Assembly (NCBI RefSeq): GCF_026004115.1
Contig: NZ_BPIM01000001.1
Span: 2,956,501-3,020,500, forward strand
From: Meiothermus sp.
GTDB taxonomy: Bacteria > Deinococcota > Deinococci > Deinococcales > Thermaceae
DNA length: 64,000 bases
Direction of reading: 5' to 3'
In this document: one piece after another, positions 3,823 to 45,483 of the stretch
Numbering within the stretch: the first letter of the stretch is position 1
Layout: each line of letters begins with the position of its first letter
Program-made: the position numbers and the translations under genes
Notes under the pieces: generated by a model
The model's input: the letters and a program-made list of their open reading frames with translations, nothing else
The model's database searches: none
What the model was told of the DNA's origin: nothing

Positions 3823-3839
3823 GGGGCTTGACAAAAGAA

Positions 3840-4003
3840 CAGGGCCGGTGCGTGAACCCTCGCAAACCTCAGCCAGGAGCACTTCAAGCGCTTAGTGTTG
3901 GAAAAAATGCTCGTAGGTAGGCTACCTGGCTAGGGGTTATACCCCCACCTGGCCTCCCCCGCTGGGGGAGGAATGCGTGGTTTTACTTTATGCACTGGCC
4001 CTG
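3840..4003 (-). mobile_element. Family B MITE-like element with perfect 10-bp target duplication
   Basis: This 164-bp element has terminal inverted repeats CAGGGCCGGTG / CACTGGCCCTG (10 of 11 match) and is flanked on both sides by GACAAAAGAA (3830-3839 and 4004-4013). It carries an internal hairpin built on CTCCCCC/GGGGGAG and no open frame. Read on the minus strand it aligns almost end to end with 45233-45395 and, with a degraded end, with 28831-28981. It is a non-autonomous element; the 10-bp duplication would fit an IS4-like transposase, but no parent element is in the window. Confidence 0.85.
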
Positions 4004-4056
4004 GACAAAAGAAGGAAGCATACCTCTGGCATTTTGAGACCGGCTACGACACCGAT

Positions 4057-6088
<2,032 letters not shown>

Positions 6089-6123
6089 ATCCTCGAACTC
6101 ATACCTCCAAGCGCGCCGAGGTT

Positions 6124-6372
6124 ATACCGGATTCAAAAAGATAGTCATCAAACCAAAAAATCCAGAGGCTATCTTTTTGAATCCTAAGTACAACAACCTT
6201 AGGAATTTGCTCTACCCGAAAAGGGGAGCCCATAAGCTGCGCCGCTTTGAAGACCGGCCACTTCTTTCGCCGAAACCGTCACGACAAAAATCTAATGTGG
6301 GCGCACTTAGAGCACTCCTTTCAGTCGGGTTAGTTCGCCGCCGTATGGCGGCGAACTAACCGAATCTGGTAT
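6124..6372 (+). repeat. Family C hairpin repeat, copy 1 (carries nested family A element)
   Basis: Outer ends are ATACCGGATTC (6124) and GAATCTGGTAT (ending 6372), an inverted repeat matching at 10 of 11 positions. Removing the nested element at 6187-6307 leaves about 125 bp with two strong stems: a 16-bp stem around AAAAAGATAG/CTATCTTTTT and a 14-bp stem GTTAGTTCGCCGCC/GGCGGCGAACTAAC. Related copies lie at 37403, 38521 (partial), 43535 (inverted) and 45072. No direct target duplication is obvious. Its right end touches the stop codon of the convergent G8-domain gene. Confidence 0.85.
6187..6307. mobile_element. Family A MITE, 121 bp, TA target duplication, nested in repeat C
   Basis: The element runs from AGTACAACAAC to GTGGGCGCACT and is flanked by TA (6185-6186, 6308-6309). 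Other copies of repeat C have the uninterrupted sequence CCTAGAGCACTCC at this point, so the empty site is directly visible. The ends form a degenerate inverted repeat (15 of 24 positions). A second copy is at 51255-51376, also flanked by TA. TA duplication points to an IS630/Tc1-mariner-type transposase acting in trans. Confidence 0.85.
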
Positions 6373-8921
6373 TACTTGCAAAGGTCGTTGCGGCAAATGT
6401 CTAGTACGGCCCAGTCGCGGCCTGGCTGATTGCGCACCACCAGCTTCACAAAAACACTGCCGCCTTCACTCCAGTAGCGGTCCCCTGAGCTGGCTTCGAA
6501 ATCGCTCCGGGAAGCCGCACGCGGTAGTTTGTTGCGATTGTCGATCCAGTAGTCACGGTATATGAAGGGTTCCCCAGTGTAGGGTATAGCCAGGGTAATG
6601 AAGTCTTCCGGTGCACTATCATCAAAACGCAGCTTGAGTTTGTTGGGAACGGTTCCTGTCACGCCCAGGGTATAGGTACGGCCCTTGATGACGCTCGCGC
6701 CAAAATTGAGATTATCGCCGCTCCTGGGGGTACCCCACATTCGGAATACCGGATTGCTACCATCGTTGCGGGTCAGCGAGACTGGGGCGATATTGCCGCC
6801 GCTTTCGTTGTAGATGTAAAGCCGACCATAGCTGTAGTTGCAGATGCCCGCATTCCACTCGGCCTGCAATGTGCAGTTGGTGTCGAGCAGGAAGGGATTG
6901 TTGAGGACGATGGCACGACCCGGGCTCCCACTAACCGAGCCATCAACATCCACAAAAACCCCGCCCCGGTAGCCATCGGCGTTGTCGTCGTTGGCCACCT
7001 CCTCGGGGGTGGGCTCTGGTCTGGGAGGAAGGTAGACCGGCTTGGCGTTATTGAAACGCGCTCCCTGCGCAAAATTGCGGCTATCAATGGCAAAATCGGT
7101 AAAGCGCAGGTAGCTCATGGCCGCGGCCTCGCGCGTGGCGGTCTGGCCACCCTGGGCATTCTGGATTTGCAGGGGTTGGAAGTTGACAAACTGCACGTTG
7201 CGGAAGCCAATCTTGCCGTCGTAGAACTCAAAACCCCGGATGGGAAAGTTGTCCTGGATGGGGCCGCCATTGCTGGCTGCCCAGGGCCTGGGCAGACTGC
7301 GGCCATCCGCCCCACGAAACTCCCAGCTTTCGGGGAAGCCCCGGTTGGCACTATCGCCCACTATCAGCGAGTCTTCCAGGGTACTCTCCGAGGAGGCAAA
7401 GGTCACCCCTATGGCATTGTCGGCCAGTTTAGCTCCGACTACTTTATGATTAATACCCCTTAGCCAAGCGGCATTCCCGCGATTTTTGTAGGCGGTAAAG
7501 TTCTTGAACTCGGCCAAAACGGGCGGGTTCTTGGCGTCGTCGTACTGGTTCTGGCCGTCGGCGGGGTTGGTGCGGGGGTTGTAATAGGTGGGCTCGGATT
7601 CCAGGGTGTTTTTGTTGGGGCCGCGGTCTACCATCAGCCCGTCCCAGTTGGAGTGGGCGACATTGCCCGAGAACTCGCCGAGCGGGGTGCGGCGGGGCCA
7701 GATGGTAGTGGTGGCCGAAGGGCCGGTGGGGTTTTCGGGCAGGGCATACCAGAAGCCGGTGTGGTGCGAACCTGCGGCCACATTGTTGCGCACGATGTTG
7801 TCGGGGTGGCCGATCCAGAAGGTGGCGGGGTTGGTGTCGGTGGGAATGATCGGGCGTTCGCCCTGCTGGCTGTTGGGGCGCCGGGTCAGAATGCCCAGGT
7901 TGTTCTCGAGCAAGTTTTTGGTTTCGGCGCTGTCCTCGAGGAAATAACAGTGCCCCACAGCGTTGTAAGCCACGTTGCCCACCACTTCCACTCGGCTGGT
8001 GCCGTGAATGGTGACGCAACGGTTGAAGCTATTGTGGATGGAAGACTGCTTGAGGTACTGCCCCGGAGCGTCGCCCATCAGGTGCCAGTGGATGGGATAG
8101 CGGGCCAGTGTGTTGCGCTGGCCCATGCGCAGCAGCTCCACACCCGAAACACGCAGGGTGCCCCCCTGCATGGACATGATGTGACCTCCAAAACCGCTCT
8201 GGCTCGAGGCCTCGTCCCCCTGGATGGTGATGTTGCGGCTCAGCAAGCCCACCTCCCCGCGTTGATCCACCCCATAGGTAACCTCGCCAAAATGGGGGTA
8301 TCGGAGGGCCGTGTCGAGGGTGATGGTGTTGCCTGCAATGGCGGTGATGGTTCTGACTTCTGCCTGTTCAGGGTTGAAATCGGTGGAGGCCAGCACGATG
8401 CGGTCTCCTACCCGCCATCCACTGGGATCCAGCACGGTTATGCGGTTAGAACCGGCAGCCACGCTCCCGCTCAGTTTGGTCCAGCCATTGCGGGGCTCCC
8501 CATGCAAATCCAGCACACCCCCCATTATCACGCCAATCACTTTGCTGCCCATGCCCATGATATTTTCGTTGGGGTTGTTGCCGGTAAGGGTCAGGACGGC
8601 TCGGTTGCGGAAGGGCTGGCTGGGGGTGCCGATCTCGAGCTTTCCGTGCACCATGATCCAGTCGGCGCTGAGCTGTAAATCCTTGTTGTCAAAGCGCAAT
8701 ACGCCGTAGATTTTAAGCCCCTTGAGTGCCGGCGGGTTGACATCAAGCGTCACGGCCAGGTCGGCGGGGATGTTCACCACCTCACCCTGACGGGGTACTT
8801 GTCCAGCGGGCCAGATTTTGGGATCCGACCATAGCCCCGACCGGGTGGGATTGGTGCCTGTATCTTGCAGCGAACATGCTGTAGCGCTCAGCAAGATTGT
8901 TAGCCAAAGCCAGTGTTTCAC
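6372..8921 (-). CDS. G8-domain right-handed beta-helix lipoprotein (CEMIP-like)
   Basis: The GTG start at 8921 follows GGAGG. The protein has 849 residues with a lipobox LSATAC (Cys16), so it is probably anchored outside the membrane. Residues about 27-150 look like a G8 domain (SGLWSDPKIWPAGQVPRQG and following conserved Gly/Trp pattern). They are followed by a long parallel beta-helix region with repeated asparagine-rich turns and the motif YPIHWHLMGD. This architecture is known from animal CEMIP/TMEM2 and PKHD1-type proteins and from scattered bacteria. CEMIP is involved in hyaluronan breakdown; whether this protein cleaves a polysaccharide is inference. The coding region ends inside repeat C. 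Confidence 0.75.
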   Translation of the reverse strand: MKHWLWLTILLSATACSLQDTGTNPTRSGLWSDPKIWPAGQVPRQGEVVNIPADLAVTLDVNPPALKGLKIYGVLRFDNKDLQLSADWIMVHGKLEIGTPSQPFRNRAVLTLTGNNPNENIMGMGSKVIGVIMGGVLDLHGEPRNGWTKLSGSVAAGSNRITVLDPSGWRVGDRIVLASTDFNPEQAEVRTITAIAGNTITLDTALRYPHFGEVTYGVDQRGEVGLLSRNITIQGDEASSQSGFGGHIMSMQGGTLRVSGVELLRMGQRNTLARYPIHWHLMGDAPGQYLKQSSIHNSFNRCVTIHGTSRVEVVGNVAYNAVGHCYFLEDSAETKNLLENNLGILTRRPNSQQGERPIIPTDTNPATFWIGHPDNIVRNNVAAGSHHTGFWYALPENPTGPSATTTIWPRRTPLGEFSGNVAHSNWDGLMVDRGPNKNTLESEPTYYNPRTNPADGQNQYDDAKNPPVLAEFKNFTAYKNRGNAAWLRGINHKVVGAKLADNAIGVTFASSESTLEDSLIVGDSANRGFPESWEFRGADGRSLPRPWAASNGGPIQDNFPIRGFEFYDGKIGFRNVQFVNFQPLQIQNAQGGQTATREAAAMSYLRFTDFAIDSRNFAQGARFNNAKPVYLPPRPEPTPEEVANDDNADGYRGGVFVDVDGSVSGSPGRAIVLNNPFLLDTNCTLQAEWNAGICNYSYGRLYIYNESGGNIAPVSLTRNDGSNPVFRMWGTPRSGDNLNFGASVIKGRTYTLGVTGTVPNKLKLRFDDSAPEDFITLAIPYTGEPFIYRDYWIDNRNKLPRAASRSDFEASSGDRYWSEGGSVFVKLVVRNQPGRDWAVLDICRNDLCK

Positions 8922-26045: not shown

Positions 26046-26226
26046 TTCTTTTATCCAGAGCGGCGGAGGGAATCGGCCCAGTGAAGTCGCAGCAACCCAC
26101 AAAAGAGCTTTTGTTCATGACCAAAAGTTTTTTTGCAAGGTGCTAATTCCGGCTCGACTGCTGAATGTTGTAGGCACACAACGTTCGAGACTTGGCATAG
26201 TCTGGCAGTCGAGAAAGATAAGAGAA
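26046..26226 (+). promoter_or_regulatory. SAM-I (S-box) riboswitch
   Basis: P1 is formed by TTCTTTTATC (26046-26055) and GATAAGAGAA (26217-26226). Conserved core pieces follow in order: GGAGGGAATCGGCCCA with GTGAAG, GCAACCC, and AAGGTGCTAATTCC, then a variable P4 hairpin and the GAGAAAGATAAGAGA closing segment. SAM-I riboswitches switch off methionine and SAM genes when SAM is abundant. metY and metX directly downstream fit exactly. The assignment is by motif recognition only. Confidence 0.88.
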
Positions 26227-28830: not shown

Positions 28831-28981
28831 CGTTGGACAAAACCCCATCTTCCTCCCCCAACGGGGGAGGCTAGGTGGGGGCATAACACCCAGAGAGGCC
28901 ACCTACCTGCGGGCATTTTTCAACACCAAACGTCTGAAGTGCCCCTGGCTGAGGTTTGCGAGGTTTCACGCACCGACCCTG
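28831..28981 (+). mobile_element. Family B MITE-like element, copy with degraded left end
   Basis: From about 28843 to 28981 the sequence closely follows 45233-45395, including the CTCCCCC/GGGGGAG hairpin, the central block CCACCTACCTGCGGGCATTT and the right end CACCGACCCTG. The left terminal repeat is shortened and no target duplication is seen. The hairpin may also serve as a terminator after metX. Confidence 0.75.
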
Positions 28982-37344: not shown

Positions 37345-37402
37345 TATAACCTGTAGCCTTTGTGATAGCCAAAAGCGGCTTCCAAAAAGAACGCAAACTC
37401 TA

Positions 37403-37526
37403 ATACCGGATTCAAAAAGACAGTTCACAAAACCAAAAACCCCATAGGTTGTCTTTTTGAATCCTAGAGCACTCCCTTCGATCGGGTTAGTTCGTCACCC
37501 TTCGATGACGAACTAACCGAATCTGA
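37403..37526 (+). repeat. Family C hairpin repeat, copy 2, interrupted by the IS element
   Basis: It starts ATACCGGATTC and has both stems (AAAAAGACA/TGTCTTTTT and GTTAGTTCGTCA/TGACGAACTAAC). The right terminus is split by the IS: the remaining bases TGATAT continue at 38431-38436 after the duplicated TGA. Confidence 0.85.
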
Positions 37527-38430
37527 GAGGCTGTCGTAAAAGGGGGCTATACTTGAGGGGTGGTTCTTCGCAGAGCCTACCCCAGCGACCTGACGGATGA
37601 GGAATGGGCCATCCTGGAGCCCTTGATCCCTGCCCCTAAAGCTGGCGGCCGTCCTGCCAGGGTGCCGAGGAGGGAAATAGTTAACGCCATCCTTTACGTC
37701 CTGGAGAACGGCATCAAATGGCGGGCCATGCCCCATGATCTGCCCCACTGGTCCACCGTCTACCACTACTTCCGCAAGTGGCAGAAGGAGGGCGTATGGG
37801 AGAGAGCCGTCCAAACCCTGGCCCGCCAGGATCGGGAACGAGAAGGGAGACAGGCTTGCCCCAGCGCCTTGGTCATAGACAGTCAGTCTGTGAAGACCAC
37901 GGAAAAAGGGGGCCCCGGGGACATGACGGGGCGAAAAAGGTCAAGGGAAGAAAGCGGCAGATTTTGACGGACACGGGGGGCCGGTTGCTGAAGGCCTTCG
38001 TGCACCCCGCCAACGAGCATGACAAGTGGGGTGGGCAGGCCTTGCTCCTGGGGATGGACCTCTCCATGTGGCCCCGGGTGCGCAAGGTCTTTGTGGACTG
38101 GGGGTACCGGGGCCTCAAGGGGCTGGCTTCTTCCCTGGGGCTGGAGCTTGAGGTGGTGGCCCGTCCCTACGCGGGGGTGCGGGGGGTCTGGGTGCGGGAG
38201 GGGGAGGAGGTGCCGGAGATTCCGCGGGAGGAGGGGTTCAAACCTTTGCCTCAGCGGTGGGTGGTGGAGCGGACCTTTGCCTGGCTTGGGCGGAACCGGC
38301 GGCTGTCTAAGGACTACGAAGAGAACCCCCGGGTGAGCGAGGCCTGGGTGTATCTGGGCATGCTACGCTTGTTGGTGAAGCGGCTGGCCAGGGCCGCGTA
38401 GCTTCCGTGGAGGGCTTTTACGACAGCCTC
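37527..38430 (+). mobile_element. IS5-family insertion sequence (IS1031/IS427-like), intact ends
   Basis: This 904-bp element has perfect 16-bp terminal inverted repeats GAGGCTGTCGTAAAAG at both ends and a 3-bp target duplication TGA (37524-37526, 38431-38433). It contains one transposase gene split over two frames. It landed five bases from the end of a family C repeat, so no gene is disrupted. Base composition is richer in G+C than its surroundings, which suggests arrival from a higher-GC relative such as Thermus. Confidence 0.93.
37560..38401 (+). CDS. IS5-family transposase, two overlapping frames joined by -1 frameshift
   Basis: The first frame (37560-37967) has the N-terminal YPSDLTDEEWAILEPLIP domain and the first catalytic Asp in VIDSQSV. 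The second frame (37778-38401) continues GPRGHDGAKKVKGRKRQIL, with the second Asp in VFVDWGYRG and the Glu in RWVVERTFAWLGRNRR. A -1 shift within the run AAAAAGGGGGCCCCGGGG (37903-37920) restores the family sequence SVKTTEKGGPRGHDG. Programmed frameshifting is normal for this IS group, so the transposase is probably functional. GTG start. Confidence 0.88.
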
Positions 38431-38520
38431 TGATATAGAGCACATCCCTCCCTGTAGGTCGGCGAAAAAAGCATCTGCCTTCCAAGGGGCGCTATCGCCC
38501 TCCGCTACGCGGACAACTTC

Positions 38521-38570
38521 GGCCCTGTTGATTCGTTACCGTTCGGCAACGAGTCAACCGAATCTGGTAT
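38521..38570 (+). repeat. Family C hairpin repeat, partial copy 3 (right half)
   Basis: It carries GTTGATTCGTTA...AACGAGTCAAC and the end GAATCTGGTAT. The left half is replaced by unrelated sequence. The terminal GGTAT plus AAAT gives a TATAAA box upstream of the aldolase gene at 38598. Confidence 0.65.
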
Positions 38571-43476: not shown

Positions 43477-43534
43477 ATGAGATCGATTCCCAAGACCGCG
43501 AGGTGCAGACCTTGTGCTCGAAACAATCAAGATA

Positions 43535-43653
43535 ATACCAGATTCGGTAAGTTCGTCACCCTTCGGTGACGAACTTACCCGACCGAAGGGAGTGCTCTAG
43601 GATTCAAAAAGACAACCTATGGTTTTTTTGAACTGTCTTTTTGAATCCGATAT
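43535..43653 (-). repeat. Family C hairpin repeat, copy 4 (inverted orientation)
   Basis: Ends ATACCAGATTC and GAATCCGATAT. Stems GTAAGTTCGTCACC/GGTGACGAACTTAC (perfect, with paired changes relative to other copies) and GGATTCAAAAAGACA/TGTCTTTTTGAATCC. Confidence 0.85.
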
Positions 43654-44955: not shown

Positions 44956-45071
44956 GGTCAGTTGTCCTGTCTGTGGAAAGAAAGCTTTGAGCGCAGCGTT
45001 CTTCAATTCTGTATGCAGTCCCTTTGCGTGCTACTTGGTCAGTACCCTTCAGATGTGAAAGAAGAGGAGTG

Positions 45072-45200
45072 ATACCGGATTCAAAAAGATAATCATCCAA
45101 ACCAAAGATCCCCAGATGCTATCTTATTGAATCCTAGAGCACTCCCTTCAGGCCCTGTTGGTTCGCCGCCATCCGACGCCGAACTAACCGAATCTGGTAT
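45072..45200 (+). repeat. Family C hairpin repeat, copy 5
   Basis: 129 bp from ATACCGGATTC to GAATCTGGTAT, with both stems present but imperfect. It shows the uninterrupted CCTAGAGCACTCCC at the site where copy 1 holds the family A element. Confidence 0.85.
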
Positions 45201-45232
45201 TACAGGGGTGGCAAGCAACTTTGTCTTTCTGC

Positions 45233-45395
45233 CAGGGTTGGTGCATAAAGTAAAACCACGCCTTCCCCCCCCAACGGGGGAGGCTAGGTGGGGGCATAAC
45301 ACCCAGAGAGGTCACCTACCTGCGGGCATTTTTTCAGCACCAAACGTCTGAAGTGCCCCTGGCTGAGGTTTGCGAGGTTTCTCGCACCGACCCTC
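45233..45395 (+). mobile_element. Family B MITE-like element with perfect 10-bp target duplication
   Basis: 163 bp from CAGGGTTGGTG to CACCGACCCTC, flanked by GTCTTTCTGC at 45223-45232 and 45396-45405. It is colinear with the element at 3840-4003 (opposite orientation) and 28831-28981. It lies upstream of tig and has no coding capacity. Confidence 0.88.
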
Positions 45396-45483
45396 GTCTT
45401 TCTGCTTTGGGTGTACCTAAATCCTGCCATATGGTTGTAAACTAAGCACTTGGCGACCCCAGGGGTCGAACTTGAGGTGTGTT

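Follow-up and report, generated by a model that had tools for sequence, protein, structure and literature searches.

What kind of element is the short repeat that occurs three times in this stretch of Meiothermus DNA, and which enzyme moved it? The window, that is, the whole stretch of 64,000 nucleotides analysed here (C1:2956501-3020500), harbors copy 1 (164 bp, 3840-4003, plus strand) with the left end CAGGGCCGGTGCGTGAA and, read as the reverse complement, the right end CAGGGCCAGTGCATAAA. This copy is flanked by the 10-mer GACAAAAGAA at both 3830-3839 and 4004-4013, and the same 10-mer is present once at the uninterrupted orthologous site of M. hypogaeus. Copy 2 (163 bp, 45233-45395, minus strand) is inverted compared to copy 1, has an altered final base (CCCTC for CCCTG) and is located between two occurrences of GTCTTTCTGC (45223-45232 and 45396-45405). 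Copy 3 (28839-28981, minus strand) retains an intact right end (CACCGACCCTG) at 28981, its left end being decayed, with homology that begins near 28839; no target duplication was recognisable at its flanks. The earlier note had placed copies 1 and 2 at these same positions, each between perfect 10-bp duplications, and had described the third as degraded at one end, all of which is borne out.

The genome (3.35 Mb, three contigs) was searched by BLAST with the element, resulting in 42 matches that correspond to 40 copies, since two copies are interrupted by other inserts. A search for the terminal repeats added nine further copies, mostly decayed, which brings the genome total to approximately 49; allowing up to two mismatches, the terminal-repeat pattern matched the genome 103 times, compared to four matches for a reversed-pattern control. 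The element is bounded on both sides by a 17-bp terminal inverted repeat (CAGGGYYGGTGCRTRAA), the left end being CAGGGTCGGTGCGTGAAC and the right end CAGGGCTGGTGCATAAAGTA. In size (164 bp, well below the limit of ~600 bp), gene content (no transposase gene) and copy number (about 49) it corresponds to a MITE.

Flanking repeats were tabulated for 55 end pairs, 47 from this genome and eight from M. hypogaeus. A perfect 10-bp duplication was present in 18 of them, at least 9 of 10 bases agreed in 24 and at least 8 of 10 in 30, compared to zero, one and six, respectively, among 2970 control pairs in which the lefts and rights of different copies were combined. This length is specific, as only two of the 55 end pairs showed a perfect match at 9 bp and one at 11 bp. 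No strong sequence preference was seen among the target sites. Other copies thus do carry the 10-bp repeats, as a genome-wide tabulation suggested in the earlier note was meant to establish, and the outcome that note had named as fatal to its reading, copies elsewhere that lack them, was looked for and did not materialise.

To look for empty sites, the flanks of six copies (L001, which is copy 1 of the window, L010, L017, L020, L021 and L023) were fused so that the duplication was left in a single copy, and the resulting sequences were compared with 18 Meiothermus genomes. Each of the six sites was uninterrupted in at least one relative, and base-level alignments revealed one 10-bp target copy at each; in the L020 orthologue of one relative (G002) the target itself has diverged. 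Copy 1 of the window is absent from M. hypogaeus, where the flanks are 95% identical, and from several other species. Because the relatives present empty sites with a single 10-bp target, the copies arose by transposition. The element is short and non-coding, with inverted-repeat ends, many copies, 10-bp duplications and sites that are empty in relatives, so that its identification as a MITE stands.

The family was found in two of the 18 genus genomes, namely this one and M. hypogaeus DSM 23238 (G003), and searches returned no match to the MITE on plasmids or phages. Four insertions are common to both species (L039/L042, L036/L046, L058/L047 and L037/L049), all of them diverged copies. Seven further copies (L008, L014 and L017-L021) form a subfamily with 98-100% identity, the tested members of which are lineage-specific. 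As the diverged copies are orthologous and the tested near-identical ones are not, more than one wave of insertion must have occurred, and the lineage-specific, near-identical copies place at least one burst after the split from M. hypogaeus. Two copies (L017 and L019) are 100% identical, indicating that movement was recent.

The interior of the element holds a hairpin, located in copy 1 at 3953-3971 (CCTCCCCC-GCT-GGGGGAGG), in copy 2 at 45265-45283, where one arm reads CCCCCCCC and one pair is lost, and in copy 3 at 28852-28870. The earlier note had proposed that it could act as a portable terminator next to genes and had considered a structured RNA as an alternative to a MITE; in either case the element would be retained for its hairpin. 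The conservation of the family supports such an idea up to a point: alignment columns 101-135, which hold CCTCCCCC-GTT-GGGGGAGG and to which the hairpin of copy 1 belongs, are as conserved as the ends, and this block is the most conserved part of the interior (approximately 94-95% of copies). Copy 1 as a whole also folds better than its shuffled versions (z -5.9), although much of this fold is explained by the terminal inverted repeats and copy 2 reaches a z of -2.9. On the other hand, no T-run as expected of an intrinsic terminator follows the hairpin on either strand, and no compensatory changes were observed among 43 copies in the hairpin pairs, which do vary.

The gene context does not favor a terminator either. 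Based on simple ORF-based gene calls, 37 of 40 insertions are intergenic, while about 23% of nearby positions are; by the same calls, the gap between divergent genes is the commonest location (13 of 40), compared to six insertions between convergent genes. This intergenic bias and these gene orientations fit a removal of harmful insertions rather than a terminator kept at gene ends. A structured RNA was rejected as well, since the MITE has no match in Rfam and its sites are empty in relatives; the earlier note had named conservation of its loci across genera as a refutation of its reading, and within the genus no such conservation was observed. Overall, an element retained as an RNA or a terminator is very unlikely. 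Elsewhere in the window, a SAM riboswitch (Rfam RF00162) is located at 26048-26167 on the plus strand.

The ends of the MITE are informative about the enzyme that moved it. ISAs1 elements have been described with terminal repeats of 14-22 bp that start with CAGGG and with 10-bp repeats (PMC11946415), and ISArsp11 of this family has ends CAGGGCTGATGC... and a 10-bp repeat (PMC6305408). The MITE ends begin with CAGGG and their repeat length falls inside this range; the 10-bp duplication agrees with a family range of about 8-10 bp (9-10 bp in other members). CAGGG ends together with 10-bp duplications were also found in ISAs1 elements of Azospirillum (L140), Streptomyces (L142) and Methylobacterium (L144).

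Outside this genome and M. hypogaeus, the end pattern matched 15 times in 50 family genomes (control: two), and several of these matches sit at ISAs1 transposase remnants. In total, six Thermaceae genomes (G001, G003, G006, G013, G014 and G018) present the repeat next to a decayed C-terminus of an ISAs1 transposase: the gene match (...FELLARLGVV) stops 4 bases short of the repeat in five of them and 7 bases short in G013. Both ends are preserved in one, Meiothermus sp. KatS3mg071 (G014), in which a 735-bp remnant consists of a transposase fragment flanked by the repeat on both sides; this fragment matches NF033564 (ISAs1, E 4.6e-12) and PF13808. The 3′ ends of the IS agree with the left end of the MITE at 16-17 of 18 bases and with its right end at 13-15, while for the 5′ ends the agreement is 18 of 20 bases with the right end and 14 with the left end. 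Beyond approximately 18-20 bp, nothing clear is common to the MITE and the IS remnants. The ends, the duplication and the linked gene remnants assign the MITE to the ISAs1 family, although its matches in relatives comprise decayed elements only.

This assignment corrects the earlier note, which had derived an IS4-like helper from the duplication. Several IS4 groups do give 10- to 12-bp duplications, and older annotations label some ISAs1 elements as “IS4” (PMC11946415), but this length is the sole sequence support for mobilisation by an IS4-family transposase. CAGGG ends are a signature of ISAs1, the asymmetry of the two ends follows that of the IS, and the terminal repeat adjoins ISAs1 transposase remnants in six genomes, so an IS4 helper is highly improbable.

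A helper was searched for in this genome with the family profile and the end patterns. The only ISAs1 found consists of two copies (L055 and L056) with ends AGGCTTTTATCATATG, identical apart from an insert of approximately 503 bp (L056 2209-2711) that holds part of another transposase-like frame and splits one of them. As its ends differ, this resident element was rejected as the direct parent of the MITE. It could still have mobilised the copies through cross-recognition, being the sole ISAs1 found in the genome, in two identical copies and with a duplication of similar length. However, its ends have just CAGG in common with those of the MITE, and the remnants whose ends do match fall into another subgroup of ISAs1, with which the resident elements gave no match at E 0.001; these differences make this route unlikely. 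We consider it similarly doubtful that the hairpin block is a working part of the element, either as a transposition signal beyond the ends or as a transcription signal, and that the family keeps moving, with no matching helper in the genome, through a borrowed transposase whose own ends differ.

An intact ISAs1 with CAGGGYYGGTGCRTRAA ends was found neither in 111 genomes of the phylum, nor in 85,000 species genomes (close relatives only), nor among the plasmid matches examined. Matches in Streptomyces, Azospirillum, Methylobacterium and Thermus plasmids were considered as the parent IS and discarded, as the examined ones end in CAGGGCGATTC... and CAGACTTGACC... Of the IS with matching terminal repeats that the earlier note had proposed to look for, remnants were therefore recovered but no intact element. 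Since the MITE has identical copies and no matching helper was found, presumably either the helper was lost recently or another transposase served.

The ISAs1 transposases of Thermaceae (L055 2420-2560, L067, L069, L083, L109, L110, L111 and L115) are encoded in two overlapping frames with the same split point, and an A4-6G6 run (e.g., CAAAAGGGGGGCAC) is located at the overlap, an arrangement reminiscent of programmed -1 frameshifting or of slippage during transcription.

Taken together, the element is very probably a non-autonomous MITE of the ISAs1 family moved in trans by an ISAs1 transposase. According to this model, the MITE would retain just the two terminal repeats (CAGGGYYGGTGCRTRAA) recognised by the transposase, the left one being the counterpart of the 3′ end of the parent IS and the right one that of its 5′ end. 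The transposase, supplied in trans, would make a 10-bp staggered cut at insertion, giving rise to the 10-bp target duplications, and gene-breaking insertions would mostly be lost afterwards. We infer that the mover was an ISAs1 transposase with these ends, an enzyme no longer recognisable in this genome.

Other small repeats were observed near or within the MITE copies. A second dispersed family, with ends like ATACCRGATTC...GAATCTGGTAT, is present in the window at 6121-6374, 37400-37529, 38517-38570, 43533-43630 and 45069-45202, and four MITE copies (L029, L033, L057 and L062) are located in or beside its members. A third small repeat (TACCAA...TTGGTA, approximately 170 bp) lies within a MITE copy (L038 1040-1230) and within an ISAs1 remnant with a MITE-like left end (L097 1579-1755). 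A fourth short inverted-repeat element of approximately 95 bp, GGTTCCCA...TGGGAA-like, occupies about the same internal position in two MITE copies (L041 1045-1140 and L061 1290-1385).

With the ISAs1 family (NF033564; ISArsp11, Frankia Francci3_2330/2941 and Aeromonas ISAs1) the MITE shares the CAGGG start and the 10-bp duplication, and in sister species ends of its type adjoin the remains of ISAs1 transposase genes; it differs in being 164 bp long, gene-free and unable to move by itself. Among bacterial MITEs, MITEPye1 of Paracoccus yeei has an IS1182-family helper (PMC11578231) and TIMEs have Tn3-family helpers (PMC4133298). Like these, the present element is short, non-coding and mostly intergenic and carries the terminal repeats of a transposon that is, or once was, resident, whereas here the helper family is ISAs1, the copies number about 49 and the helper has apparently been lost from the genome. 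The literature on MITEs together with Meiothermus, Thermus or ISAs1 yielded no description of this element, nor was a previous account of any ISAs1-type MITE found in the literature searched, which is not proof of absence.

The new MITE family of ISAs1 type in Meiothermus is real and recently active, and it is an ordinary, well-documented kind of genomic parasite. It gives Meiothermus a MITE family whose helper family can be named. The presence or absence of M. hypogaeus orthologues could make individual copies useful as markers of strains and species, and cross-mobilisation has a clear test case in the recent copies, which lack a resident helper.
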